From positions 8,312,676 through 8,376,675 of the forward strand of contig NC_049997.1 in NCBI RefSeq assembly GCF_000003815.2: a stretch of DNA of 64,000 nt, given 5' to 3'. The DNA is from Branchiostoma floridae. Its lineage: Eukaryota > Chordata > Leptocardii > Amphioxiformes > Branchiostomatidae. Shown one piece after another: positions 3,013 to 62,484 of the stretch (the first letter of the stretch is position 1; each line of letters begins with the position of its first letter). The notes under the pieces are model-generated. The model did no database searches. It was not told where the DNA came from and saw only the letters and a list, made by a program, of their open reading frames with translations. The position numbers and the translations under genes were made by a program.

Positions 3013-4915
3013 ACACACCCGGACCGCAAACACGCCTTCTCACACCAACCCAACCGTACCGCCAGTGTAAAGACAGTCAGACTCTGTACATATGTGCCGG
3101 CCGTCTTAGCTTGTCTTATTGTTTAATCATCCACTCCTTTAAGACTTGTTTGCGATTAATCAGGTATTAGTTAGATAAGAAAACATACTTCTTTGTTTGG
3201 TATTAAAGACCCGATCACACAATTGTAAGTTCTGCGATCATCGCAAGATCGCAAACTGAAGGCATTCTTGGGATAGTTAGCTTTGAATGTGTCGTGATGC
3301 GAAACTCTAAGGCTTTCCACCTTGTTGGTGGTTGGTTCTGTCACGTACAACATACTTGAAAAATTTGCGACACAAAATCGTCTGACGGTCTACGACGAAT
3401 ATTAGCACACCGAAAGTTTTGACGTATATCTCCCAAAGTATTCGTTAATTAGAACAAAATATCTTTAAATTTTGTACATTTACATCACAGTACTAAGTGT
3501 TAGAATAAGTGATGATTTGAACAAATATTGGCTTAATAAATAGAAAAGTGTAACTGTCGATCGTAGCTTGATGTTAAGTACTTGTGTCATCATTGTTCTT
3601 TCAGCTGTTTGTTTTCTAAAGCACAAGATGTTTTTCTGATCTATCGAGGGTGTGATGTGGGATTTACTGTACACCGATTCATTCTTTTTGATATTTGATA
3701 TTTGGTAACATTCAAGACTACAGATTGTACTAGTTGTTTAGATTTATAGGTAATTGTAGTAGGTTTCCGTTACCGTTCTCTCATTTACTGTCGCCCGGAC
3801 TGAGGTAACACCAAAAATAAAATGGCGAAAAATCCAAATAAATTAAATAAATAAATAAACACGTAAAAGAGACAATGTTTTGTTGGGTGGTTTGTTGTGA
3901 ATATGGACCACGAAAACTAGTCTTCGAAATGGATTCCGTCTTTGAATTCAAAGAACAAAAATATCACTCTAGAGCACTTAAATACAGATCTGAATGTTTG
4001 GATGGATATTTTTCACATTTATGGAAAGTTTGAATTGGAACATCACAGCAACGGATAATATAAATCGTAGGATATTTACCACGTTCCCATGGATTTCGTC
4101 TTCTTAATATTGCTTGGAAAAAGTTAAATCACATTTTTAGCGTACCTGATTTTCAAGATATATGCACTATCCCTCAACCTGTTTAGTCAGGCGTCCAGTC
4201 TGTAAACATGTTTACACAATCGTCCTCATTCTAACAAGAGCTTGCCAAAGAGGGACAAAGGTATCGAACACTGTCCGCCTGTCCGTGTCAGGATCTGGGC
4301 AAAAACAAAGGTCAATGACCGACGAAGTTCCCAGTGTAAGATCAGCAAAGTTAACTAGAGCGCGTCCATTACAAAACCGACCCAGTCGTTCTAGCCGAAT
4401 GGCTACAGAGTTGTGTATTTGGAAATGGGAAGAGGGGTCATTGGCCTTAATCAGCGAACAACGGATCTTTTTTTCGTTATGCTCGGCTGCACTCTTTTTG
4501 GATTTTGGATGAAAATGGACAGCATTGCAATGTGTCTGTTTATGCCTTGTGGGGACCACAATTCTAGGACCATTTGATGTGGTTTTTTTTACTCGTTTTA
4601 TCCGGGGACTTGTCAAACTAGCTTGTATCAGTCACAGCACATCTTTGATACAATTTTATCTTTGATAAAAACATGGTGATTTCGTGCGTCGATCGGCCGC
4701 ATAGTAGTATTTTCAAGAACAGTAGAATAACAGACCGACACCCCATTTTGCATAACATCTGTGATGGCTAGGGCTATTGTATTAAGAATTAAGAAATACT
4801 CTAACTATTTCACAGAAACGTAAGATCCATGATTGCGTGTATGTAAATTTGTAGTCTTTTTAATAAAAAATGACAAGAAAACCTTAACAGTTTTTTTGTC
4901 GCTCTTTTACAGGAG

Positions 4916-7900
4916 ATGGTCCGGTCCGCCACACTGCTAGTGGCGTTCGCGCTGCTGGTGTCCACTGCACATGCGCAGTTTGATTTCGGTAACATCGACC
5001 TCGATGGGACCGGTGATCCCTTCATCATCCTCACTCGGCCTCCTACCCAAGCGCCTGTAGCAAACCCCGTCGTTGTCCAACTTCTCGGGCAGGTTTCCGA
5101 CTTAATTAGGCAATCGGGCGACCCAGATGGAGCCTTCTTCGCACAGTACTTGGTCGGGGAGCTGGCCACGGCAGGCATCACCGTAGACGGCCTCACTCAG
5201 GGTATAATCACCTCCTGGTCGGCCGCGCTAGCCGCGGAGGAAAGCAACTACGAAAGTCTTGCCTTGCAGTTTGAGTCAGTCGGTACGCAGCTCGGGTTCG
5301 ATGCGACGCAAGTGGCCGCGAAAGCATTGACCGATTATAACGAGTGGCTGAATGTCACGGCCATCTTGCGTGCGCTGTCTGCTCGACTCCAGGGCATCTC
5401 TCCCGACAACGTCGGCGGGGTGGCGTGGCAGATCTCCACCGCACTCTCCTCCTACGGTTATCCCAGCGACAACGCCTCTATTGAAGGCATCTACAACTGG
5501 ACCGTCGCACTCGTTGCCGCAGGGAACAACACGGACGGTGTCGCCATGGACTTCTACGGCGTCGCCGCAGCCGTTGGCGTGTCTCCGGGAAGCCTGGCAC
5601 AGGATCTTCAGCAACTACTGACAGCGGCTTTGGACGAAGGCGAGTTGGTGTACTTCTACCTGATGGAAGTGAAGCAAGTCATGAGCAACTTCAACACCTC
5701 CTACATCCGGCAGTTTAGCATCTTGATCGCCCAGGAACTCAACACCCTCGGTTTTCCGCTAACCCCTGAGAACAGCGAGACGATCTACATGTGGACATTG
5801 GGCCTGTACAATAACAACGACGGCGACATCGGCGTATACATCAATCAGTTCTACGAGGTGGCCGCCAGTGTAAACAAGTCGGCATCGGAGCTCGCCAAAA
5901 TCGTCTGGGAAGACCTGACCTCCCAGCTGCAGGGAGGCGCAGCAGTCACCGCGCACCTGATCGAGGTGAGAAACCTGCTGAGACTGGTGGAGTTCAGCTA
6001 CATCAGAGGTCTGAGCGAGTTCATCGCGTACCAGCTGGTACCTCTCGGCTACCCCGTGCAAAACGACACCTTTGAAGTCATGTACACCTGGACCGTTGGC
6101 ATGTTCGGCAACGACGACATCACTCCTTTAATCCAGCAGTTCTACGACGTGGCAAGCCTGGTGAACGTATCGGCGGCAGATCTAGCTCTGGGACTGAAAG
6201 ACGCGCTGACTGCACAGCTGACGGGTGGAATGAGCGTTGTCACAGACCTGATCGAGGTCAAGAGGCTACTGAAGACAAGCGACTTCAAGTACATCGAGGA
6301 CTTGAGTCTCCTCATCGCAAACGCCCTTGTTCCTTACGGTCTCGAGTTAAACAACCAATCTATCGCCGCGATGTACAACTGGACCGCCGGTCTCTACCTG
6401 GACGACGACATCCAACTTTACGTTGAGCAGTTCTACACAGTGGCCTCCATGCTGAATACGTCTGCTCCTGACTTGGCCGCGGGTCTGCGTCAACTCCTGA
6501 CTGACCATTTTGCTGAAGTCGAACAAGTGGTGATGGATCTGATAGAAGTCAAGCGCCTGCTCAACACCGTTGAGTTCAAGTATGTCTTCGGTTTGAGCCA
6601 GCTGATCACAGGAGCCCTAGGCCAGTACGGCCTCGAGTACAACAACGAGACCGAAGCTTTTGTGTACCAGTGGACCGCAGATCTCTACAATGCCCAAGAT
6701 GACTTCGGCCCGCAAGTCGAACAGTTCTACCAAGTAGCATACATGCTCAACGTGTCGGTCAGCTATCTGTCCAACGGTCTGAAGCAGCTCCTGACCAACC
6801 ATTTCGCAGAAGTCAATCAAGTCGTGACCGATCTACTGGAAGTCAAGAGGCTGCTCGGCACAGTGGAGTTCCAGTATGTCTACGACCTGAGCCTCCTCAT
6901 CACAGCAAACCTCATGCCCTACGGACTTGAATACAACAACGAATCCATCGCAATGGTGTACGGTTGGACCGCAGGTCTATACTTTGCACAAAACGACATC
7001 GGCCCACAAGTCGAGCAGTTTTACCAACTAGCCTACATGCTGAACACGTCGGTGGTAGACCTCGCGGCCGGCCTGAAACAGATCTTGACCGAGCATTTCG
7101 ACAAAGTCAACGCCGTTGTAGACAACCTCCTACAAGTCCAAACCTTGCTGTTGACACTGGATGAAGCTTTTCTTCCCGGCTTAGGCCAGTATGTAACCGG
7201 TCAGCTCGCCACTCTTGGTTTCCCCTACAATGACGAAACAGTTGCACAGTTGACCCAGTGGCTGAACGACATTCGCAACGGTCTTGACTTTGGAGCCTAC
7301 GTTCGCCAGTTCTACGAGGTCGCTGCTGTTGTGGGCGTGCCAGAGGTGGAGCTCTCCGGAAATCTCCTCGCTGGTCTGCGGGAACAGATCGCTCTGGGCG
7401 AGGCAGTCTACTACGACATCTTTGAAGCGAACCAGGTCCTCCCGCAACTAAGTGACATGGACGTGGCCAACACTGTCAACTTCATCATCAACTTCATTAC
7501 AGACAGAGGCGTCATGGTCCCAATGGACTTGGAGCAAGGCATCAGGAATTGGACCATCGCGCTTGCACAGCCATCAGCAGACCTCCAGCCGATAATTCAA
7601 GAGCTTTACGGAGTGGCTGAGCTTATCAACATCCCGGTGAGGGACATGTCAGGGGCCTTGGTCGACCACCTTAGGAAGGAGCACTACAGTGTACCGGATT
7701 ACATCGAAGTCGTGGCTCTCATCCTCCAAGATATTAACGTCGCGTACCTGAAGAACGTCTCCGTGGAGATCACACAAATCCTGACGGGACTCGGCATCCC
7801 GGTGCCGGCTCCTGAGCTGCAGATGACATTGTTTGAGTGGGTCGAGAACATCGCCCTCAAGCCAGAGGACCTCCCCTTATACATCGATCAGTTCAGAGAG

Positions 7901-10900
7901 GTCGCGGCACTGGTCAACGTTAACATTGACGAGCTGGCATACGGGCTACTCTCAGAAGTGGAAACGCTCGCAGAGGCATTCCCCGACGGCTTCAGTCCTT
8001 CCGTGCAGAACATCCTCGACAACCTACCGGAACTGATGCAGCTGTTCTCCACCTACTTCCCCGATTTCTACGCCAACGTCAACAACCAAGTCCAACAGTT
8101 TGGCATGGCGGCATGGGCCAACGTATCGGCAAACCTGACCAACTATTTCAACAACGCACCACCCGAGCAAGCCATGATGTTCGAAAACAAGCTTCCTGAA
8201 ATTGCCGCTCTCCTAGGCATCGACATCCCAGCTAACGTGCTCCAAGGAGACGCCAACGCAATCATTCAGTACATCCAAAGCCAGCTCCCGGACATGTACA
8301 TCCTGTCGTCGGCTATCCAGCAGGCGTTGGAAGCAATGACTCAGCAATTCCCAGCTCAACTCGTCGGAGAACTGCTGGAGGTGATTTTCGGCGTCGACAT
8401 CCCTGATGATTTCTCCTTCGATCCAACCTACATCGTTCAGCAGATCCCGGTCTTCCTCGGAAGCCTTGGCGTGCAGGTGCCTTCCAACTACTACGACATC
8501 GTGATGGCGTTTGCATCCTTCGAGCAAACCCCAGAGTGGTTCGCCAACAACGGCGCAACCATCGTCTCTCCCTTCGGAATCAGCCTCCCCGACGACTTCC
8601 AACCCACAGAGGAGTACGTTGCCGCCAACCTCGACAAGATCATCCAAACCATCGCCAACCAGGCGCCACAGATCGTCGGGGTTCTGTACAACACAACACA
8701 GCAGATCTTTATGCAAGTTCAGCAAAACATCGCCGTCAACTCCGGTGGCGACGTCGGCATGTTCATTCAGCAAATCATCCAGAAGGTTCTGGACTTGCTG
8801 CCTGGAGCCAGCGACTACTTCGGCTTCTACCTGCCGGAAGACTACAGACCTGAGTTGATCTACTTCGCCGAGTGGGGCATCAACGAGCTCTTCAACCTCA
8901 TCCCCACAAAGGAAGAATTCGTTCAAATGGCCGTGCAACCAATCGCTGCTACCCTAGCACCAAACGACACGTGGATTGCAGAGCTCTTGGAGGATCAATT
9001 CAGTCTGATATACGATCTGAACATGGTGTACATCGAGCATATGCCCGACGCTCTCAAGTGGATCGGCCGATGGCTTGGTTTCGAACTTCCCGACGACTTC
9101 AAGTTGGAGCCCGAGTGGTTCATCGCTCAGCTGCCCATGGTGCAGGCGTATGTGGAGCAGAACGCCGCCATGTGGTTCGACCAAGCGACCATGATGTTTG
9201 CCGAGTGGTCCGAACAGGCCAACATGTGGATCAGTGGCTTCATGACGGACAGCCAGGGATGGAACGACATGGTCAACGCCTGGATCAACGACCTACCTCA
9301 GACAGTGGCCGGCTTGTTCAACCTCGATACTCTCTTCATGTATTTGGATCCTGCAAATGCGCCGGAATGGATGACCATGACACCTCCTCCAATCCCATTC
9401 GATGCCTTCCTCACAGACGGATGCGTCCACGCCATCGCCTTCATCCTGGACGTCGACATCCCCGAAGACTACAAAGTTGACGATCTGAGCAAAGACTTCA
9501 ATATGCTAGTCAACAAGCTCTTCATGACGCCGCCCGACTACGAGCTCTCCTTCCTCGGCGAACTCCAATGGCAGTGGGAGACCTTCTTCGTCAAGCCCCT
9601 GAAACTGGACATCCCAGACGACTTCCAGCCCAGCCTGCAGTACCTTCCTGACGTCATGATGTACTTCGGTATCAACCCGCCAGATAACTTCGAGCCAACC
9701 CTCGACTTCTTCCTGATGTGGGGTAAAGAGTTCATGATGAAGCTTGGGTTCGTCTTCCCTGAGAGGGACATGATGGGGGCCCGAGACGACGATGCCACGG
9801 ATGCTCAAGCCGGCGATGTCATGTCTAGGTGAGAGTCTATTTTTACGAACACTTATTCTCATTTCCATGTCTTTAGTATAACTCGTTTTACTAATTTTGG
9901 TAAAGGATATGTCTATACCATTGTAATATCGATCATAGTTTTTGTCCATTTTCCTTTCCAAGATATGCCATGTGTATTTTGTTCTAACAAAACAAACTGC
10001 TGCACTACCGTAGATATGTGGGCCTTTCGATTAATCATTTGAATTTTTGTGTCGTTACAGTGACGACATGATGGCGATGGATTTCGCGTTCCTTGAGTAC
10101 ATGGCGGAGTTCTTCATCATCAACCAGAACAACTGGCCCATGATCATCAAGGAGGCCGAGACGGCGTTCCCGATGATCGCCGCCCACTTCGCCGAAGCCG
10201 GGGACAAGATCGCCATGACCTTCATGCGCGACGTGAACATCATCCTGCAGGCCTACACAGACTACAACACCAAGGTCGCCAGCAACTTCATGAACCTGTA
10301 CGAGGGTATCTACGATCACGTCACGATGCGAGCGCAGGTCCTGGTGAAGAAGATGGTGATGTACGTGTCGCACATGATGAAGCTGGGCAGGCACAACTTC
10401 CAGGCTATGGTGAGGCATCTCCGTCTGAGGCTGTCCATCGAGCTGCACTACCTGGCTCACCTCGCAGAGGAGTTCATGAACAACGGAAACAACTACCCCA
10501 TCCTGCAAGCGATCGCCCAACAATTCCAGCAGCCCAGTCATCCTATGATGAACATCCTTTCCGGCTTCCTTGACAACTACTTCCAGTCTCAGAACAAGCA
10601 CCCGATCGCGGTTCTGCACGACTACCTCCACAGCCGCCCCAGCGTGTCCACATCCCGCCCTCTCATCGACGTGATCGCCAACTACCTCGACGGCATGTCC
10701 AACCGCCCGAGCCGCCCGATCCTGCAACAGATCATGAACTACTTCTCCGGTCAGCAGCAGAGCGCTTGGGACGACGTTGCCGACTTCTTCTTCGGAATGA
10801 ACAACAACAACCAGCGCCCTCTTCTGCAACAGCTCTTCGACAATTTCTTCGGAAGCAACCAACAGCAGTACCCAGTCCTTCAGACCATCGCAGACAATTT

Positions 10901-11768
10901 CTTCGGCAATTCTCAGCAGCAGTCATCCCCCGTGCAAATGCTGATGGACTACCTCAATGGACAATCTAATAGGCCAAACATGCAGTCCATCGTCCAACAG
11001 CTCCTTGGCTCCTCTTCAGTCATCAACCAGATCTTCGGAAACAACGAGAGGCCAACGCCGCAGCAAATGCTGTACGAGCACATCTTCGGCAACGATGGCC
11101 AGCGTCCTCAGGCTAGCCTGCAGGTACTCATCCAGCAGATGTTTGGCACAAACAGACCGTCGCCCAACCAGATCATGCAGCAGGCTGTCCAAGTCATGTT
11201 CGGTGTTCAGCAACAGGGGTGGAACACAAACACGTTCTACGACGACGATAATCAAGATCCGCTCGCCTGGCTCCTTGGAGACGACTGGATGAATTGGTTC
11301 ATGCCGGAAGAGGAAGAGAATGACAACTGGTTCTCCTGGCTGTTTGAAGAAGAAGACAAGGAAGATGACAATAATGACTGGTTCTCCTGGCTTATGGGTG
11401 ATGAGGACAAGTCATCAGAGGAGGACAAGGAGGATAGCTGGCTGTCCTGGCTGTTTGGGGAAGAAGACAAAGAGGACGATAAGGAAGACGACACACAAGA
11501 TTGGTGGTCCTCGTGGTTTGGCGGCGAAGAAGAAGAAGAGGAGAAGCCGGAGATGTGGTACACGTGGTTCTTCACCCCTCCTATGGAACAGGACAAGGAC
11601 TCCTCCGAATCGATGGAGAACAACTGGCTCTCCTGGGCGCAACCTCAGAACGATGACCAGCCTGACACCTTCCTGACCTGGTGGCTGTCGGACGACTCCC
11701 AGATGTACTCCGGATTCGACCATCTCGTCAAGCCCATGCAGTTCCTTCGCGGTCGCCAGTGGGGTTAG
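4916..11768 (+). CDS. Giant secreted tandem-repeat protein of unknown family (2206 aa, two coding exons)
   Basis: Join 4916..9828 and 10061..11768. The 232-bp intron has donor AG|GTGAGA and acceptor GTTACAG. The join rebuilds one Ser codon (AG+T) and carries the frame through without a stop. The ATG follows a splice acceptor at 4909-4912, so a 5'UTR intron is likely. Residues 1-20 are a classic signal peptide ending A-H-A before Gln. The mature protein then has ten ~97-residue repeats (about residues 90-1030), a region with recurring I/L-P-D-D-F (about 1100-1600), a helical Met-rich stretch, Q/N-rich segments ending in FFG (about 1778-2023), and an acidic tail with Trp-x-x-Trp blocks (about 2036-2185). 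Many N-x-S/T sequons fit secretion and glycosylation. I count a single Cys (in D-G-C-V, near residue 1503), so disulphides cannot hold it together. There is no transmembrane anchor after the signal peptide. I do not recognise the family. A structural, adhesive or matrix role is only a guess from composition. Confidence 0.88.
5180..7975 (+). repeat. Ten coding repeats of about 97 residues in the giant secreted protein
   Basis: The landmark Q-F-Y-x-V-A (variants L-Q-F-E-S-V, D-F-Y-G-V-A, E-L-Y-G-V-A, Q-F-R-E-V-A) starts at 5267, 5549, 5846, 6137, 6428, 6722, 7016, 7307, 7601 and 7889. Spacings are 94, 99, 97, 97, 98, 98, 97, 98 and 96 residues. Each unit follows the order Q-F-Y-x-V-A, then N-V-S-x-x-x-L, an amphipathic stretch, I-E-V-K-x-L-L, F-x-Y-I/V, L-G/Y-Y-G-L, N-N-E-S and Y-x-W-T-x-G-L-Y. 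Units 5-7 are closest to each other and differ mostly at third codon positions; the outer units are more diverged. All ten lie in one exon without introns. The pattern suggests a repeated all-helical domain. Confidence 0.9.
8385..9690 (+). repeat. Second coding module with recurring (I/L)-P-(D/E)-(D/N)-(F/Y) motif
   Basis: After the ten long repeats the same exon carries at least seven segments beginning with a proline-aspartate motif: D-I-P-D-D-F, S-L-P-D-D-F, Y-L-P-E-D-Y, E-L-P-D-D-F, D-I-P-E-D-Y, D-I-P-D-D-F and N-P-P-D-N-F. An aromatic/acidic strand and a helix follow each. Spacing is irregular (about 25-110 residues), so this is a second, looser repeat family and not a continuation of the first. 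The gene's only Cys codon lies here. Confidence 0.75.
10480..11215 (+). repeat. Q/N-rich short repeats with F-F-G / M-F-G ends
   Basis: The second exon encodes about ten short units of 20-27 residues. Each has a proline near the front (R-P-x-L-Q-Q or similar), an amphipathic core such as L-F-D-N or I-A-D-N, and an end of F-F-G, I-F-G or M-F-G followed by N/Q/S. The segment is rich in Gln and Asn and has almost no Lys. This composition is typical of self-associating or low-complexity extracellular proteins in general, but I know no family with this exact unit. Confidence 0.75.
11253..11700 (+). repeat. Acidic tail with eight Trp-block repeats
   Basis: The C-terminal ~150 residues alternate hydrophobic Trp blocks (W-L-L-G-D-D-W, W-F-S-W-L-F, W-F-S-W-L-M, W-L-S-W-L-F, W-W-S-S-W-F, W-Y-T-W-F-F, W-L-S-W-A, L-T-W-W-L) with runs of Glu, Asp and Lys-Glu-Asp. 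Block spacing is roughly 16-26 residues. It is strongly negatively charged and unusually Trp-rich for an animal protein. The reading frame is certain because it is continuous with the upstream repeats and ends at a TAG at 11766-11768. Confidence 0.85.
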
Positions 11769-16468: not shown

Positions 16469-19088
16469 CTACTTAACCTCTGTAGTCAGGAGTGTACAGA
16501 GTACAGGGTAACAGTGGTTGTTATTGTTTTCTTTAGTACTGTGGTCATTTCCAAAATCCTTATCTTCAAGAGGGTTTTCTGAGTTCTTGTCGTTCAAGAA
16601 GTGTTCTGGACTCACTGGCGGTTGTGAAAGGGGTAACCGATCCAGTCTCTCTGAGGTTGCCAAGAAATCCCCATGTTGATCCTTGTAACAAAGCCAATAC
16701 GTCGGGCGACGAAGGCTATCCAAACAGCAGTTCAACAGTTTCTTTGACCAGTAGAAGTCGGAATAAGTTGGAGGACTGATATGGGGTTTTACAGGTGTCC
16801 GGACGTCGAGTTTCGTTGGAGTGCAGTACATACGCCGACGCTTCCAAAACGTGTTACATTTTCCGTTTTGGTAGGGGAAATACTGATTTCCTATGTGGCT
16901 GTGCATGTGCACTTCGTAATCGCCCTTGTTTGCCATGACGTGCGAGCAAATCTTACACAAAAAGTGGTCCGTGTTTGGCGTAGCAAAATGCACAATCATG
17001 ACGGACAACGTTGAAGACATGAAGTCGCAACACGGACATTTGTAGACGCCCTCTTGCGGATCTTCGGGGCGGTGCAGTTTGAGTCTCATGTGACGCGAAA
17101 GTTTTGCCGACTCCGCGGTCGCGTAGCAGCAGCGCGTACATCTGTAAGGTTTTTCTCCGATGTGAATTTTCATGTGAGACGCCATGTTTGACCTGTGGAT
17201 TTAAACAAATATAGTCTTCTAACAATACAAATATCATTTACTCTTTATCAATACCCATAGAGCTTCATAGCTCATAATGACCAACATGACCTACATCTAC
17301 ATACGCACATACATTGCAACATTCCATACCATACGCCCACTGTTACATGCAACAAAAACAACAACAATAACTAAACAACAACTGTAAAACGGATAAACAG
17401 GCATATTCTTATCATTGCGGCAGCGACACCTAGCTGCAATGAGAAGTAGAACAAGCGAGGATTGTCCGACAGACGACGACCGATCACCATCAAATCGGCT
17501 AGGTAGTAACTCTACCTAGTATTTATGGGCAGGTCAAACATTTTTATTTCAAATTTCTTGTTGGAGATCACTTTTTGAACCTATTTTTCTACTGGTTCCA
17601 ATGCATATACAAACATTCCCTAACATATACATAGATTAAGACAACTGTCCATTCATCTGTCGATTGTTAGCTGTAGATTACTAGTATTAGTAATGTTCTA
17701 ATTTCAACTCACATGCTCTATCGTGGTCGGCCCTATAGCTACTATAGAAGCCAAGTCAAAGCCGATAAGATACAGTTTAGCGTTAGACTTGAGTAGTTAC
17801 TACTAGTATACTGTTTACCATGGTTTGTCATTTTTTTTGTCACTTGCACTTAGACCTCCGACAAGAACTTGCAATAAACTTATTACTAGTACCTACTTGT
17901 ACGCCGCCCTGTACCCGCACTCCCCACACATGTACGGTTTTGTGTGTTTGGCCATGTGCGCTCTCAGAGCCTTACGGCGGGTAGCGGCGAACTCACAGTG
18001 ACGACATCGGTAGATTTTGATCGCCCAGACTGTGAACGAACGAAATTTTGGGTGAACTTTTCAATAAAGACTGTCCAAGACATAAGACTTAAGTTGTTAG
18101 TACAACGGGTTTATGTTGCTTGGAGATTCCTTTTCTGAAAGCCACATATGAGGAACTAGAAGGGCAACATCTCGCAAAACAAAGAAATAATTTCACGTTC
18201 AGATGGTCTGGTCTATCAAACTACTGCTCTGATTATTCTTACTCAATCAAATCCATATACAAATGTAGGTATGGGGACCAGCCCCTGTCATGTCACTTGC
18301 TACATTCAGCAATCGCAACCGAACATCACAGAATAGAAGAACTTTATTGCGCAACGATCGTACACGGTACAATGTATGGCAAAAAAAAGAAGAAACAAAC
18401 GTATCATCCTAATTACTAAAACAAGTATCAAACATAGTACATATGCAGATTATGAATATAGAATGAAATTGACATCCTAATTTCTAGAACAATAAGACCT
18501 AGCCTAAATATTGTATTACAATATCTGATACTATACCAGTAACCATGGTAACAGCCGTCTGGTCCAGGTCATTAACCTTAATAGTTATTTGTTTGGAGAA
18601 GAAGAATAGAAAGAAGAAGAAACAACGCAAAAACAACATGTTTCTCTTCTTTGAAGGTAAAAGTACACAGAAATGTTTCCATTGTATACGTTTACTAACA
18701 CATTCGACCACATGTTTTAATTTAATTCAAATGCAAAAAATAACCTTTTTTTTTGGTTCATGATAAAAGTTTTTGGTTCATTATAAAAGTTTTCTAATGT
18801 CAGTCAGATTAAGATAAACGCCTTGAAAAACAAACTTATACTTGTTTTCTGACCTTTGTGTTTAGAGCTGTGTATGTTCATCTCACACTCGAACGGCGTG
18901 GTGAACTGGCAGTGGCTGCACTTGTAAAACCTCTCGCGCGGGTGGGCCCTCTTCAGATGACGTGTGAGGTTCTTCTTGTACTGGGAGTTGAAGTCGCAGT
19001 ACGGACACTCGTTAATCACGAAGTTATCACGTGACGAGCACGTGATCTCATCCTCAGGATGGTCTGTGTCGTCCTCCATTCTTGTCAT
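16469..19088 (-). CDS. C2H2 zinc-finger protein, seven fingers (363 aa, three coding exons)
   Basis: Minus-strand join 19088..18854, 18029..17897, 17192..16469. Splice sites keep phase throughout: the middle exon has acceptor TTCACAG and donor AA|GTAGGT, and the last exon has acceptor CCACAG. The last junction rebuilds finger 4 exactly (C-x2-C-x12-H-x3-H), which confirms the model. Fingers start near residues 28, 57, 87, 113, 141, 175 and 202. Fingers 1-4 and 7 are canonical or near so; fingers 5 and 6 have long His-His spacing (x5 and about x7). The only full T/I-G-E-K-P-Y linker is between fingers 4 and 5. The protein probably acts as a nuclear DNA-binding regulator. Its poly-finger pattern with short degenerate linkers recalls the REST/ZNF group, but I cannot name an orthologue. 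The first donor is ambiguous: 18842 is also in phase and adds four residues. The ATG at 19088 may not be the true start if an upstream exon exists. Confidence 0.85.
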
Positions 19089-33700: not shown

Positions 33701-36297
33701 AGTACTTTCGAATTTTTCTTGTTTCAATGTTTTTCCGAAGAGTTGAGCATGAAAAGAAAGCATCCAAAGTTTTCAAATGTATTTTGAGACAGAAAATAGA
33801 AATAGATGATAACAAAAGTGGCCAGAACCTTAATAGAACTCTTGTAATGATTTCAAGACACAAAGTGAATGGTACGAAAACAGCACGTACCTCTGACCGG
33901 TGGTTGTGCTGAAGTAGGAAGTGTTCCATTCCGGGTACAGCTACCGCCTGGACCTGTGGTGAGATGTACATCAATTAAGTAGGGCTCAAGCACATTGATA
34001 ATTTTTAAATATCTTTAAGTAGAAACCATACAGAATTCAGTACACCATATTATGGGGCCTCTTGACTGGAATATATCTCTGAATTGTAAACAAATCATAC
34101 ACTTGAGTTATAAAAAGTCGTATAGTTTATCATATTTCAGAACTTCAGTCCAAAGATGGTTTGTTTTGTAATCGGAAGACATACTTGACTTAACAAAAAT
34201 GATAGATATTCAGATTTATGGTTTATTCTGAGAAAGGGAAATTAATTTGCTAGATTCATAGCTTAAACTGGTTGATACACAAACATATCGAAGAAATACA
34301 AACATAAAACTGAAGTTCTGTTGTAGTAACAAGGAAAGCCGCTAGGACGTCCTTGACCTCCGCCTTCCCCAACACCTACACTCATACAAAATATCATTGC
34401 AATGCATTCCTACAACATTAGCATAACGTAATCTCAAAGCAGATCCACGGTGGTGTAATATAGTATCTCCGGTGCCCGTTTGACTCCCTTTGGCCGGCTA
34501 TACTCCTTGGCCAGCTTTGATACTATCTTATGGCACCGTAGGATCTGCTTGGAGATCAAACATTACGTAAGTCCTAGGGATGGAGAAATCATGAGTAAAC
34601 TTGGGTATTGTTTCCACACACTTCAAGACACAATAGCTCAAGGACAACTCACCTGTAGAGGGGCGGGGTCCAGCGGCATGTTCACTGGTTCACCTGACGT
34701 CCCGTACACGACAGTCACGTTCTCATTGGGGACGTCAAACCCCGGAAACCTTACGGCGTGAGCCAACGGAACCACTGGGGACCTGTTCGCCTCCTGTAGT
34801 ACGTACTGTAGGGTGCGGATGTAGTCCATGGCGGCGTGCAGGGTGTCCACTTTACTCGGCTTACGGTTGGGAGGGAGGGAGGGCACCATACGCCGCAGTT
34901 TGGCGAACCCCGTGTTCAAGTTGCGTACTCTCTGGCGTTCACGGGCGTTCGCTTCACGTCTCTGTTAATTAGGTCACGAGAAAAACATTTACATATTTAC
35001 AAATAAACAAATTTGTAAACAATTCGCTATACAACATACAGTAAGAGAGATGGGGCAGTGTTCATTGAAATGATGTGCTGATTTCTGTCTTCCTTATTTT
35101 CTATCGATGATTTTGAAGCGATAAGAAAATGAAGAAATGGGCATGTATGAACAATGATGAAATGCTTCAAATTGCATCGAATTTATCACAAGAAAAACAA
35201 GGGTATTAAAGCATTTGTTCTGTTTCTATGTTGAAGAACTATAAATAATAAGAACAAAAAAAAAAGCATTTTAGCTGACTATTTGTTATGAAAGAGTATT
35301 ATTTTCAGGTGTACCTGAAGTGTAGTGCAGTGTAGTGATTACATGAGAAGAAGAGAAGGATTACCTTTGCTATAATGTCTTCTGGGTCATCATGACTTGA
35401 CAGCGAACTACTGCCGCTAGACCGTCGCCGGCGTCGCACGATTGCAACGGGCACGGGCAGAGAGCCGCCCTCCTTCCGCAAGACATCGCTGAGCAGCTCG
35501 GGCTTGGGCGTCGGATACGTGACTGCAGCGGGCGGGCCTCGGAAGACGTGACGCCCGACGAAGTCCTCACCGACGTACGGTGGAGGGTTTGGTTCTTCCG
35601 GGGACGGAGTCAAGCGAGAGTCGTCATCTTTTTCTAAGAAGCTCTCGAGGTCAACGCAAGCCGTGCTTGAAGGCGAAATGTCTTGTGTAAGATGTCCGGT
35701 TTTGTCGCCATCTTCTGGACCAAGATTCGGGATGGAAGGAACGGAGAGAAGAAACCCCTGTCCTCGGAGGTAGCCGATGTCGTCGTTTTCAGGCGGAGGG
35801 GTAGGCACGGGGACCGGCCGGGCGTGATTGCTGACGTACGGGCTCTGCAGGGAGTGAGCGGCCACGGCAGGTCGCACGGACGGGACGGTACTGCACCTGG
35901 CCCCGAGGGTCGTGAAGGAACTCACGGTATTCCCGCCGAGGAAAAACGACTGCCAAGGCACGCCGGGGTAAAATGGACGATATTGCGAGCAGTTGTCATA
36001 GTCCACTACTCCTCTTCCACAGGTAACGAAGTTACCGTGATGGTGTGTGCTCGCAGGCGGTGGCTGGACGAACCCCTCCCCGACAAACGCATGACCATGC
36101 CTCGCTGGTCCTTCCTGCGTCTTTTCCACGTTGCAGAACTCCGCTGGAAACGGTTTGGGCTGGAAGCAGACATTTTGAGCCAGCTTCTCGGGAACGCCTG
36201 ACGCAGGAGACGCAAGTTCTAAATGAGATCCCGATGTGATGTCCACAACTTGTACCGGCTCTTCTGACACGCCACCTGCGTTGCAAATTACGTCCAT
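30772..36297 (-). CDS. FIGLA: FIGLA-like bHLH transcription factor (484 aa, five exons)
   Basis: Minus-strand join 36297..35365, 34961..34653, 33953..33891, 32516..32447, 30851..30772. Donors are GTAATC, GTGAGT, GTACGT and GTGAGT; all acceptors end AG; phases agree (0, 0, 0, 1) and the last exon ends in TAA. The ATG at 36297 has a good context (A at -3, G at +4). The open frame continues upstream to 36462, but that first codon is GTG, so I do not use it. The basic region and helices lie at about residues 312-368. [10 protein letters not shown] is followed by G-F-A-K-L and [11 protein letters not shown]. The G-F-A plus R-K-P-S-K-V-D combination is the signature of FIGLA, the oocyte E-box factor of vertebrates. 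The basic-region Glu needed for CANNTG contact is present. The 311-residue Pro-rich N-terminal exon is much longer than in mammalian FIGLA. The two smallest exons (63 and 70 bases) and the last rest on splice phase alone. Confidence 0.75.
30981..31090. repeat. Fold-back MITE with CTCCAAGCAGATCC termini (copy A)
   Basis: It starts ATCTCCAAGCAGATCCTACG and ends with an imperfect reverse complement (GTAGGGTCTGCTTGGAT). The interior shares TAGCTTTTGATACTATCTT with copies B and C. It lies in the last intron of the FIGLA-like gene. Confidence 0.8.
32650..32765. repeat. Two neighbouring tetranucleotide microsatellites
   Basis: A GTGA run (about 32650-32667) and a GAAT run (about 32744-32764) lie close together inside an intron of the FIGLA-like gene. 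They produce low-complexity frames that are not coding. Confidence 0.8.
34431..34556. repeat. Fold-back MITE with CTCCAAGCAGATCC termini (copy B)
   Basis: It starts ATCTCAAAGCAGATCCACGG and ends CCGTAGGATCTGCTTGGAGAT, with the shared interior CAGCTTTGATACTATCTTATG. It sits in intron 2 of the FIGLA-like gene. Confidence 0.8.
34653..34961 (-). CDS. FIGLA: Exon 2 of the FIGLA-like gene: the complete bHLH domain
   Basis: This 309-base exon has acceptor ATTAACAG and donor CAG|GTGAGT and is phase 0 at both ends. The whole DNA-binding and dimerisation unit therefore sits in one symmetric exon. It opens with [12 protein letters not shown], has a Pro-rich loop (L-P-P-N-R-K-P-S-K) and helix 2 beginning V-D-T-L-H-A-A. 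The exon also encodes about 45 residues after the helix. Confidence 0.88.
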
Positions 36298-36492
36298 CTT
36301 CCAGCCGAGGAACTTTAGGTCAGGTTTTCTATACACATGTTCGCTTGTTCCAGAAATGCACCTAAACGACGATAGACTCAAGAATATTCCAGCCGTACGG
36401 CTGTTACCAATCTTCGTTTCAAGTATGGCGCAAAAATCCAGAAGCGCTGCTGTCCTGCGCACCTGCGCCGAGAACTACCGGCATCCAAACCA

Positions 36493-36529: not shown

Positions 36530-39500
36530 TGCAATTACGTCATTAATCTAATTATGATACACCTGTAGCTTTTCGCGTGGCGTTCATTATCATAATCATT
36601 ATCATATCGCCCTGCTTGCTTGGATTAAGATTCTTCGTTTGTCCCGAGCGTATATCCTATTTTTTGTGTGACGATCTTCTGGATCTGTACCGCAACATAC
36701 AAATGGTATGCTTTCTATATACTTATGATGTAAGTTTATTGAGGCTGACAAAAATGTAATAATGATCATCATTAATTTTACTGTAGGACCTTCGAAGCAC
36801 TATTGTATCTTTAGCATTTCTTGTATGTAAGAAAAAGTACAGTGTCGTCTCTAGAATTGTTGCTACTTTTTGTCATGAGAGGAGTCTGGCGGAGCCCATT
36901 GTTTACGTGTGTCGGAATGGACACGACCGGTACCGTGTTGTTTACACGGTGTTGCGTGGCAGGGTACACCCCGCTACTGTTTCCCTGGTCAGATAACAGA
37001 GATTTGGATCACTGACACAGTCCCACAAACCACACCGTACAATAGGCGGCCAGGACGTGGCACGTGTCGCTGCTACATGGCAGGAAAACAGACGATAGGT
37101 ACGAAGCGTGGTCTCTATTTCAGTATTTGTGAGAAAAGTACTAACGAAACAAGGTCTCTATTTGTGAGAAAAGTACGTACGAAGCAAGGTCTCTAGCTCT
37201 ATTTGTGAGAAAAACAGACGACACTTGAAGTACGAATGCAAGCAAGGCCTCTGTGAGAAAAACAGACGACTAGAACGAAGCCAGACCTCTATTTGCGAGA
37301 ATAACAGACGACATAACGCATTACTTGAGAAAACATACGGCAAGTTCAATCTTGGTCTCTGTGAGGAAAACAGCCTACAACTTAAGTACAAGTACCGAAC
37401 AAGGTCTCTATTTGTGAATTAAAAAAAGCAGACGACAAGTACGAAGCAGGGTCTCTATATTCGTGAGCAAAATAGACAACAAGTACGAAGCAACGTCTCT
37501 ATTTGTGAGAAAAATAGATGACATCAAGTATCAGTTGAGGAAAGTTCAACCATGGTCTGTGCGAGGAAAACATTCGACAATCTTGGGCTTTGTGAGGAAA
37601 ACAAACGACAAGTACGAAGCACGATCTCAACTTGTAAGGAAAACAGACGACAAGACAAAAACCAGCTCTAAACTTACGTGAGGAAACCGGCACTCGGACG
37701 ACAAGTACGAATCGAGTCTCGAGAGGAACACAGATTACAAGGAGAGCCCTGATCTATACTTATGAAAAAAGAAACAGACAGGTACCAAACAATGTTTCTA
37801 TTAGTGAGGAAAACAGATGATAAGCGTAAACTACAGAAATAGCGTCGTCGTTATATGCTACTGACTGAACTTGTCCGAGTTTCATAACTAACATAAGATT
37901 TGTTCAAGTAGGACTACACATGTGAACGATAAGAAAAACACTAACTGATTCTAAAAAAGAAAGTTTTAATAAGAAGATTCGAAAAGAAGTAAAACTAATT
38001 GAAAAAAATCTTTTGCAAAATACACGTATTACATGACTCAAAGAGAAGACTTACTCCCTTTGAATTATAAATCGTTCTTGGACGTGCACAATGTATTTCT
38101 ATTGAGTTAGTCCCAAGAATGCTTGCTGATACTTACTTAGTCTATCCAGTTCATACATGTACAGTTACACACTACATCTGATCCGTCCCAAACCAACATA
38201 TTACACGGTGGCTGAACATGTGTAACTCCAGTCGACCCATTAGCCTTGTACCGGGAGAAACCATTGTGCAGGGGAGGAGGGACACTTGAGGTAACCAGTC
38301 ATGGCGCCAAAGAACGTGCAATAGGGCGCCACATGGAGAGGAACAGGAGAAGAAAAGTCAATGACTTGTGACAAGGAGGATTCTACTGCTTCTCATGTTG
38401 CTTAAGATGGGCCTTTATGTCACCATTTAAAATGACGAATGCAGTCCCTAATACCCCTGTCACATTATCAACGGTCTTCGGGCGTATCGATGGATGATCG
38501 GCCGTATATAGCATCGACAGAGAGGGTTGCACGTATTTTTCACCTGAAAACCGTCCCTGTCACATATAACCCATACTTTGTACCTTGTACAATTGTTGTG
38601 CAATAAAGTTATTATCATAAGCGAAACTCGGGCGATTGCCGCAGACTCGTCGTCCGATCAATTTTCGCTACATGTGAGGGGGGTATAACAATTGCAACAT
38701 GTCCGAGCCGGGGCCGACTCAGGCTAACATCCCATACTCTAGGGACTCCTCTGCAAAGAATGTACTGAAAATATTCATCAATCAGTTTCCAAATTTGGCA
38801 TCATCAAAAATCTGAAAGGCAAGTATTTCCAAATTTGAATAAACGCGTGATAGAAAAGGGCAGCTGGGACACCGTAAAGACTTTGCCTCCCAACGTCTGC
38901 TCTAACGTTACCTTAAAAAACCTTCTGTAGTATACACTTTTGTTCTAATCCGCTAGAGGCCGCTTCGTTTTGTCTGCACCAGGTGTTGCAGATGGCATGT
39001 ATCATGGCAATTGATATTTTGTACCAACTACTTGTTAGATGTTTGGATAAAGTTACAATTGTTGCTGCGAAATGTATTGATAATCGTATTTCTGCGTCTA
39101 TACGGTAATTCGACGAGTTGCTAATATTCGTAACACCAGGACGCTTGTTTTCGTGAGTTTGTATGATGACGTCATTGTCAGACGACAGGCCCACATGTTT
39201 CAAGGCAAGAAAGTCGACATTTTCTGCGTCGTTAGCGTCAGCTTGTTAGGTATACGTCATATTTGTCATCAGATTTAACGTTTAGTATGGAAAGTCTATT
39301 TACAACTAAATATGTGAGGTACTAAAATGATTAGATTTCTTTGTGGTTTATATTTTTTATACCAGGATATAACCCGACTTATTACCTGAAGGTTTTAATG
39401 AATTATCTTTAGACGTTGCGCTATTGTAGAACTCAAGTAAACATTATCTATTAAACGTCTTAGAAAATAGATGATTAATTTGTTTAGGTGGTGCTCTAGA

Positions 39501-56056: not shown

Positions 56057-56475
56057 GATATTGTTTTTGTCTGTTTCTACTCCTTTCTTACACGACGGCA
56101 CTTTAAAATGTTTGTCAAACGTCGGTTGGTACAGTTTTTCCTGTTCCCATGCCGTACGGAGCACTTACCGGCGAGTGTGATTATTCACACGGTAGTAGAT
56201 GGGAGAGATAACGGCTTAAAAACAACAAGTGCCACCGTCTCACGTCTCCTTATCTTATCACACCGGGCAGTTCATCGGGTCGAGACCAGTTCTATGGCGG
56301 ATGAACGAGTTTTTTGCGCCGCTTGAGACAACAATAGCGCATCGTTCACACGTCCAAACTGCCTCTGGAGTGGGCATCTTTCACCGGACCCGGTGTCAAG
56401 CCAACTACTTGCCCTGATACTGCTTTGGGGTTTTCAGTATTTCTAAGTGTTGTGCGGCAATCTGCAAGCAGCTAG

Positions 56476-56697
56476 CCCTAGCCCTAGCCCTAGCCCTAGC
56501 CCTAGCCCTAGCCCTAGCCCTAGCCCTAGCCCTAGCCCTAGCCCTAGCCCTAGCCCTAGCCCTAGCCCTAGCCCTAGCCCTAGCCCTAGCCCTAGCCCTA
56601 GCCCTAGCCCTAGCCCTAGCCCTAGCCCTAGCCCTAGCCCTAGCCCTAGCCCTAGCCCTAGCCCTAGCCCTAGCCCTAGCCCTAGCCCTAGCCCTAG
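56476..56697. repeat. Exact (CCCTAG)37 array, telomere-variant-like
   Basis: The 222 bases are 37 perfect head-to-tail CCCTAG units; the other strand reads (CTAGGG)n. This differs by one base from the chordate telomere repeat TTAGGG. The open Pro-Ser frame across it is a by-product. The array runs directly into a 14-mer array with no spacer. Confidence 0.97.
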
Positions 56698-57019
56698 CCC
56701 TGGCCAGCTAGCCCTGGCCAGCTAGCCCTGGCCAGCTAGCCCTGGCCAGCTAGCCCTGGCCAGCTAGCCCTGGCCAGCTAGCCCTGGCCAGCTAGCCCTG
56801 GCCAGCTAGCCCTGGCCAGCTAGCCCTGGCCAGCTAGCCCTGGCCAGCTAGCCCTGGCCAGCTAGCCCTGGCCAGCTAGCCCTGGCCAGCTAGCCCTGGC
56901 CAGCTAGCCCTGGCCAGCTAGCCCTGGCCAGCTAGCCCTGGCCAGCTAGCCCTGGCCAGCTAGCCCTGGCCAGCTAGCCCTGGCCAGCTAGCCCTGGCCA
57001 GCTAGCCCTGGCCAGCTAG
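56698..57019. repeat. Exact 23-copy array of a 14-mer (CCCTGGCCAGCTAG)
   Basis: The 322 bases equal exactly 23 units of 14, with no mismatch seen. It is followed by a single CCCTAG and then unique DNA. The unit looks like CCCT(A)G expanded by GGCCAGCT, contains the palindrome CTGGCCAG and forms GCTAGC at each junction. It was probably seeded from the neighbouring hexamer array. Confidence 0.97.
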
Positions 57020-57416
57020 CCCTAGCCTTACGCTTACTCACTGCTTCATGAAGCAAAACTCTGGCGGGGCATAAATTCGGAGCGACACCCGGCTCTTAGA
57101 GAAGAGAACTTAGTGACAGGCCGTTTGAATGATGTCATCGCGTCCTACAGTTAAGTACCCTTCAGGAAATGAGGCATGTTTGTCAATCAAATACCGATCT
57201 TGTGACGCATGCTTTTTACTCAGGGCACATATATGTGCATGTGTAATAAACGTTAGATAAAGTATTATTCAGAACAATTCCCCCAAAAAAACATCCAATT
57301 GTATTCAAGTAAACATTGAGTTGGTTAATATTGTGATCGTTAACTTGTAACGTTATGTTTTCCTTATGTAAAATATGTAAAAACCCTGCTGGACTAGCCG
57401 TATGACTGAAGGATAT

Positions 57417-60654: not shown

Positions 60655-61233
60655 TCATCTCGATTCTTTGCTATTTTCGGAATCGTCTGAATCCTGTTCG
60701 GGACTTCTCGGGTCAATGTCGTTAGTTTCCGGAGACGCCGAATCCTTGTCGTCGACGCTGCCGATCCTCGACCGATGATTGTTTCCTTCTTCTTCGTGCA
60801 AAACTTTTTGCAGCTTTTTTATGTATTTTATAGCCGCTCGTAAGGTCTCGACTTTGCTTAGTCTTTTGTCAGAAATGTCTGAAGGAAGGTGTTCTCGAAG
60901 TCTAGCATATCCTTCGTTCACGCATTTAACTCGTTGTCTTTCCCTCTCGTTTCTTTTTCTAATAAAAGCTGGTTCGAATCCGTAGTCGTAGAGCCCGTAT
61001 GGCGACGGAAATGGTAGATATGGGAGTCTACCGTTGAGGTAGGAGTCATGATACACGGGGTCCAGGTAGGATTCTAACATCGGCGGGATCCCCGGGACGT
61101 CGTCCGGAGGTAGGCGGGGGTCGGGGTACCCTCCGGGGAGGCCTGGCTCTGAGGCGATCGGTATTCCCAGCTGTAGACACGTCGGGGTCGAGTAGGGCAC
61201 CGGGTCGTGGTGATGGTGGTGGTCTTCGTCCAT
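60655..61233 (-). CDS. ASCL3/4/5: Achaete-scute family bHLH transcription factor, ASCL3/4/5 type (192 aa)
   Basis: The minus-strand ORF from ATG 61233 (ACAATGG, strong context) runs to a TGA at 60657-60655. It is intronless, as usual for ASCL genes. The bHLH lies at residues about 91-146. F-E-P-A-F-I-R-K-R-N-E-R-E-R-Q-R-V, C-V-N-E-G-Y-A-R-L-R and D-K-R-L-S-K-V-E-T-L-R-A-A are shared with vertebrate ASCL3/4/5, including the F-E-P-A-F lead-in of ASCL4. ASCL1/2 would read V-N-x-G-F. The N-terminus has five His in a row and a Pro/Tyr-rich stretch; the C-terminus is Ser/Asp/Glu-rich. The protein should dimerise with E proteins on E-boxes. The frame continues upstream to an ATG at 61338 (227 aa), but that start has weak context. 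A donor (CAG|GTATGA at 61304) and an acceptor (GAGACAG before 61242) suggest a short 5'UTR intron instead. Confidence 0.88.
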   Translation of the reverse strand: MDEDHHHHHDPVPYSTPTCLQLGIPIASEPGLPGGYPDPRLPPDDVPGIPPMLESYLDPVYHDSYLNGRLPYLPFPSPYGLYDYGFEPAFIRKRNERERQRVKCVNEGYARLREHLPSDISDKRLSKVETLRAAIKYIKKLQKVLHEEEGNNHRSRIGSVDDKDSASPETNDIDPRSPEQDSDDSENSKESR

Positions 61234-62484
61234 TGTCCAGAGCTGTCTCCCTTTAAAATAACACAGTATGGCACGGGTTAGATATTGCTGGGACTGACTC
61301 ATACCTGGTGGAGAGAAACGCTGTGGGTGGTGAGGCATCTACCAACCCCACAGACAAGTCAGACATACCAGGTCGAATTTACCGTGCTTGCCCGTGAGAA
61401 CGTCGTCCTTTGTCCCGGGAATATTTAGCAAACACGCCGGGATTTTTCCACGTACAGGTTCTCACCCCTACACCTTCACCTCATAATATTTTCGAGGGGG
61501 CCTTAAGAAAAGAAGGGTCGAGACTCCGCCTAAGTGGGCACGTTAGATCGTCTTTCCGGACAACATGTATCCACGGGAGGAGAGGGGAGGGGGGCACAGA
61601 GAGCTCTCTGTCCGTGATAACGACCGAGACGTACAGTTTATACCCAGGCTTCACGCCCGTGTTGAACTACACACACAAATGGGAAACGTTGTACTTGAAG
61701 GGTTATCCAAACTCTTCCTTAAGGCGGTGTTACTGTCATGAACTCATGACCCAAGGTTCTCATTGTTTCATCTCATCAGGCCAAGGACTGTGGTCACAAA
61801 ATCAGGAGGTTTTGGTTCGAGACGGCCCGTTTTATATGATTTTTAATTTGCTAATAAAACAAAACCACTGAAGGAAATCAACCCTACATCTTCACCCCTG
61901 TAGCTGTTTCTCAACGCTAAAAAACAAAATTAAGGCTCTCATTTTTCCTACATTCTTGCAAACGCCATACTTGTATTCGCCTCATACCATTGCGGTAAAC
62001 ACCTGTTGTGGCCAGTGAAGGTCTTTAGTGGCTGGGGATATCGCGGTGCATTGAGTTTCCTATGTACAAATTGGCGCCGTCAAAGTGTTGAAAGATGGGC
62101 CCTTCCTTTTCCGTTAATGTTTCTGCTTCTTTGTAAACAGTCCTAAACGTTTTGGTCAAACTGCACTCTTATACGGTTTTTAGTATACCAACACGACCTA
62201 TCATAAACGTACTGTCTTGTTGCAAGCAATCTTTGCCGTTTCTTTTTATCAAAAGAACGCACGAACGTAGTAGAGAAGAACACTTAATCTCGAATTCCAG
62301 TCTTCATGGAAAATATACCATCCTCTACGTAGGTTTACTCGACAAAGAAAGGGGCTACTTGTACGCGGGGACCATGAACGGCTCGGGCCACTTGTTGCTT
62401 TGTAAGCGATCTGGCTTCAAACCTGCGCGGCCCGGGTAGGACAGACAACGGTGGTGCACGCGGAACAATGGTCGGCTGGGGTGG

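Follow-up and report, generated by a model that had tools for sequence, protein, structure and literature searches.

What kind of protein is encoded by a large acidic repeat-protein gene on C19 of Branchiostoma floridae, and what might that protein do? The window, that is, the whole stretch of DNA analyzed, spans 64,000 nucleotides (C19:8312676-8376675). The original prediction described a secreted chain of 2206 residues, read from two coding exons, with several successive repeat architectures and no known domain signature. The gene itself is made up as follows:

4916..9828, forward strand: coding exon A (1637 codons and two bases)
9829..10060, forward strand: intron, GT..AG (GTGAGA...TTACAG), 232 bp in both gene copies
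10061..11768, forward strand: coding exon B with stop codon

The gene and its second copy

The two-exon model holds: open reading frames underlie both exons (4874..9832 for exon A, 10035..11768 for exon B), the intron has GT..AG borders, and the exons join in frame through a split Ser codon (AG/T) to give a product of 2206 residues. It is very improbable that the exons are parts of different genes. Such a reading could draw on the fact that the gene model is read from DNA and that the open frame of exon B starts 26 bases inside the intron; however, the GT..AG sites and the 232-bp intron are found in both copies of the gene, both exons carry in-frame constraint, and the translation of exon B has no signal-like start of its own.

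An acceptor-like TTTTACAG stands immediately 5′ of the ATG in both copies, which makes a non-coding 5′ exon upstream of the ATG likely. A scan for TATA elements returned 37 matches against 42.6 expected. Five further ORFs of at least 150 residues overlap the gene, three of them on the minus strand, and look like its shadows. The share of NNC codons is 0.83, compared with 0.74 in one Dpy19 exon (itself with one stop), 0.62–0.67 in three ORFs of the window, and 0.64 across 23 of 30 nuclear-receptor pieces (single pieces 0.14–0.96; seven were dropped for internal stops and two of those kept still contain one stop). Codon usage is thus not clearly a mark of high expression.

The second copy, detected by tblastn against the animal's own genome, lies 66,382 bp upstream and is 98–99% identical in protein. 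Two colinear blocks (C19 8235487-8303160 and 8303275-8352002) adjoin a 100-N stretch (8303175-8303274). Identity over colinear pieces of at least 400 bases is 84–98%, with one exception (77%) that falls within a tandem repeat; some 18 kb, with gaps, belongs to the first block only. Because two colinear but diverged blocks meet at the 100-N gap, a false duplication in the assembly is likely: the window's first 39 kb probably appears there in duplicate, and the two gene copies are probably two haplotypes placed end to end. A true tandem gene pair, the outcome of recent tandem duplication, appears less likely. The second block ends at about position 39327 of the window.

Elsewhere in the window, an ORF on the minus strand (60655-61338) encodes a helix-loop-helix domain (E 1.6e-18, above the Pfam cut-off) and another (16469-17200, minus strand) shows similarity to C2H2 zinc fingers (zf-H2C2_2, 38.4 bits, cut-off 40). 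An open frame at 35305-36474 on the minus strand specifies 389 residues that are partly proline-rich and have no Pfam match at E 0.01. Tandem CTAGCC-type units lie within a GC-rich stretch at 56472-57027.

Architecture and constraint of the chain

The sections of the protein are arranged in the following order:

4916..4975, forward strand: signal-peptide-like start, residues 1-20, with cleavage predicted between AHA and Q by the A-x-A rule
5261..8185, forward strand: ten units of ~97 residues each (residues 116-1090), carrying 19 N-glycosylation sequons
8186..9828, forward strand: PDDF region, residues 1091-1637, with seven P[DE][DN][FY] motifs between residues 1163 and 1589
10061..10547, forward strand: residues 1638-1800, Met-rich, amphipathic, locally basic after 1700
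10548..11177, forward strand: Q/N-rich section with FFG segments, residues 1801-2010
11178..11765, forward strand: acidic Trp tail, residues 2011-2206, with 55 D/E and 20 W in 196 residues
11286..11636, forward strand: seven WxxW motifs, residues 2047-2163, spaced 14-23 residues apart

Details of the N-terminus support secretion. The first residues read MVRSATLLVAFALLVSTAHA, followed by Q, and end in the A-x-A pattern at which signal peptides are cleaved; no 13-mer of the whole chain is more hydrophobic than their core (2.28). A hydrophobicity scan of the entire chain returned no other membrane-like segment, all 19-residue windows being below 1.6. Secretion is further supported by a threefold enrichment of N-glycosylation sequons in the units: 19 occur in residues 116-1090 against 6.3 expected, a number reached by none of 3000 shuffles, and two columns of the unit alignment hold five sequons each. 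Residues 1091-2206 contain two sequons (5.9 expected).

The ten units are defined by a period of 97/98 residues, at which the top 40-residue self-diagonal scores 167 compared with 38, 34 and 40 in three shuffles. Individual units are 23–69% identical to the reference unit, and a profile built from all ten gives 79–129 bits on each, values that are high by construction; a weak partial unit is found at residues 53-112 (6.5 bits). Hydrophobicity at the helical angle stands well above shuffles (z 8.4), whereas the strand angles do not (z −0.1 and −0.8).

Each section was also compared with itself, the best local self-match being expressed as z relative to shuffles of the same section. Residues 1-115 gave −0.7, the units 22.4, the PDDF region 5.7, residues 1638-1800 5.6, the Q/N region 11.6 and the tail 6.9. 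The ten units and the distinct repeat sections that succeed them in the original prediction (PDDF, Q/N-FFG and acidic Trp tail) are therefore each repetitive beyond shuffled controls. Helical amphipathicity extends into the PDDF region (z 5.5) and residues 1638-1800 (z 5.2), weakens in the Q/N section (z 2.6) and is absent from the tail (z −1.0); strand periodicity at 165 or 180 degrees exceeds shuffles in no section of the chain. Fourteen Met fall within residues 1601-1700.

Descent of the PDDF motifs and of the 97-residue units from one ancestral sequence is not supported. The profile of the unit's G-centred stretch scored 4.2 bits on residues 1091-1637 (best domain −0.5), compared with up to 8.7 bits (best domain 7.2) on 300 shuffles, and hhalign gave a probability of 0.5 percent.

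The tail accounts for all seven WxxW motifs; the chain's other 31 Trp form none. The motifs have a shuffle P of 0.00085, a value to be read with the fact that tandem repeats are non-independent events. The chain as a whole has a single Cys in 2206 residues, a mass of about 247 kDa before glycans and a pI of 4.05 (computed from residue 22), with 86 K+R set against 291 D+E. It is rich in Leu, Phe and Trp.

The two copies differ at 35 of 2206 residues. The protein is under coding constraint, and both exons are constrained in frame: dS is 0.053, dN 0.0084 and dN/dS 0.158 (0.105 without codons 440-520), although, if the copies are alleles, the ratio describes polymorphism and is a weaker yardstick of constraint. 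Values of dN/dS are 0.48 in residues 1-115, 0.25 in the ten units (116-1090), 0.034 in the PDDF region (1091-1637) and 0.15 in residues 1638-1990. Residues 1991-2206 carry nine synonymous changes and no nonsynonymous change, a pattern with a probability near 1e-7 under neutrality. Codons 453-512 (window 6272-6451) form a divergent tract that holds 26 of the 116 nucleotide differences between the copies. Several of its changes resemble neighbouring units, which is suggestive, but only suggestive, of gene conversion; a direct donor unit was not found among the units, the best non-self match being 58 percent.

Relatives and comparable systems

That the chain bears no known domain signature was borne out by family libraries and by PDB sequences. 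Pfam-A gave no model above its curated cut-off, and no enzyme or receptor domain: the best row is DUF4535 (E 0.00051, 20.1 bits, cut-off 28.3, over 17 residues), the next NLRC4_HD2 (E 0.0032, 18.4 bits, cut-off 33.1), then four weaker rows. Scanned singly, the ten units drew five Pfam families, each in one unit, all below cut-off (best E 0.025). NCBIfam, enzyme and receptor domains included, returned one row at 12.2 bits against a cut-off of 246. Among PDB sequences the best match by sequence and profile search has E 0.23, and the unit profile produced 31 chance-like rows.

Nor does the genome hold a further paralogue by tblastn (513.4 Mb, 431 contigs; queries were exon B, exon A, the PDDF region and three units): only the two copies were found, plus one chance match (E 1.57) with a stop inside. 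Across the 64-kb window the unit profile hit nothing else better than E 2. A search of GTDB and IMG/VR with six peptide patterns, which reaches close relatives only, returned no relative of exon A, and within that reach a horizontal or viral origin was rejected. Word matching in the open-access literature, a method that cannot match this gene, found no description of such a protein.

Comparison with known systems is by kind. The gel-forming mucins assemble through Cys-rich VWD domains and carry P/T/S-rich domains. Like them the repeat protein is large, secreted, polyanionic, predicted to be glycosylated and a possible gel former; unlike them it has one Cys, no VWD-type Pfam model and no richness in P/T/S (S 5.2, T 4.5, P 4.9 percent). 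Silks are built of long low-complexity G/A/S repeats, and the N-terminal domains of spidroins are helical, Met-containing, soluble and nearly Cys-free. The repeat protein shares a nearly Cys-free chain and a helical, Met-containing, putatively soluble part with these, but its composition (G 5.6, A 8.1, S 5.2 percent) shows no such G/A/S-rich repeats and no PDB sequence matches it better than E 0.23. Thrombospondin type 1 repeats and other C-mannosylated proteins likewise have WxxW motifs in a secreted chain; the repeat protein, with its one Cys, lacks the disulfides of such repeats, and six of its seven motifs have a bulky residue at +1.

A likeness in kind is to the oikosins, the house proteins of Oikopleura, which are secreted as components of a chordate extracellular matrix. 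In the part of the oikosin study consulted, 35 of 80 oikosins have no similarity to known proteins, and those with domains carry Cys-type modules such as EGF, CCP and TSP1 (PMC3390340), in contrast to the one Cys seen here. The repeat protein for its part has a signal-like start and enrichment in sequons; a location in matrix is putative. There is, then, chordate-branch precedent for a protein of this kind; what distinguishes the repeat protein is a block design with almost no Cys and an acidic Trp tail that is fully conserved.

A possible extracellular gel polymer

Given its build, we think there is about an even chance that the protein is a secreted, almost Cys-free, strongly acidic glycoprotein serving as scaffold for a gel or mucus outside the cell or for a surface coat. 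The glycosylated helical units would form an elongated soluble rod, and the PDDF and Q/N-FFG sections would supply association surfaces. In the tail, aromatic WxxW clusters between acidic spacers may form a sticker-and-spacer block through which chains are cross-linked with no need of disulfides, a process that Ca2+ or pH could adjust. Constraint, the signal-like start, helical periodicity, the sequon-rich N-terminal half, the distinct sections, the excess of acidic residues with a single Cys, the confinement of WxxW motifs to the tail and the lack of an enzyme or receptor domain above cut-off all count in favour of a scaffold; against it count the tail without helical periodicity and the weak periodicity of the Q/N section (z −1.0 and 2.6), a composition unlike the low-complexity G/A/S or P/T/S type typical of the silks and mucins that are best known, and codon usage with no clear mark of high expression.

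The motifs of the tail could instead be an array of C-mannosylation sites, WxxW being the sequon of DPY19 enzymes, and not bare aromatic stickers. All seven lie in the tail, and matches to the Dpy19 family above cut-off occur on C1 and C12 of the genome. However, the sections consulted of two reports on DPY19 enzymes describe a small +1 residue as preferred or required (PMC10154233, PMC12990085), whereas the +1 residues here are M, F, F, L, S, Y and L. Because six of seven are bulky and one is small, we regard such an array as improbable and have mostly rejected it.

Other roles for the whole chain deserve consideration. Amphipathic helical periodicity, N-glycosylation sequons, large size and abundant Leu, Phe and Trp would suit a soluble store or carrier of egg, coelom or plasma with helical units as binding sites for lipid or other hydrophobic ligands; this we consider unlikely, since the Pfam listing contains no vitellogenin or apolipoprotein model and the sticker-like acidic tail and Q/N section would be left unexplained. 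A silk-like fibre or adhesive protein, stored in soluble form and solidifying outside the cell, would fit with the near-absence of Cys, the Met-rich helical sections, the acidic soluble N-terminal part and the repeated polar blocks. Yet the chain has no long low-complexity repeat of crystalline type, and strand periodicity fails to exceed shuffles, which makes a fibre decidedly doubtful. Multivalent secreted repeats and the locally divergent tract at codons 453-512 are what might be seen in a protein of recognition or defence, attaching to microbes or microbial sugars at its many repeated sites; the strong constraint across most of the chain and the lack of a lectin-like model in the Pfam listing render this a slim prospect.

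Returning to the gel or coat scaffold, the houses, tunics, mucus and coats of the chordate branch are often made from proteins without known relatives. Should the gel reading fail, there would still be a constrained protein, nameless in the family libraries searched, in an apparently widely used model genome. As a constrained, well-bounded product of a single locus with clear blocks, it would offer a tractable test of a disulfide-free extracellular gel. We tentatively suggest, as a possibility below even odds, that it represents a lancelet-specific class of polymer, in extracellular matrix or mucus, whose gelling needs no disulfides and which combines glycosylated helical rods with a strictly conserved acidic WxxW sticker-and-spacer tail. 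If this is true, synthetic thickeners that associate hydrophobically would have a natural counterpart in the lancelet gel polymer.
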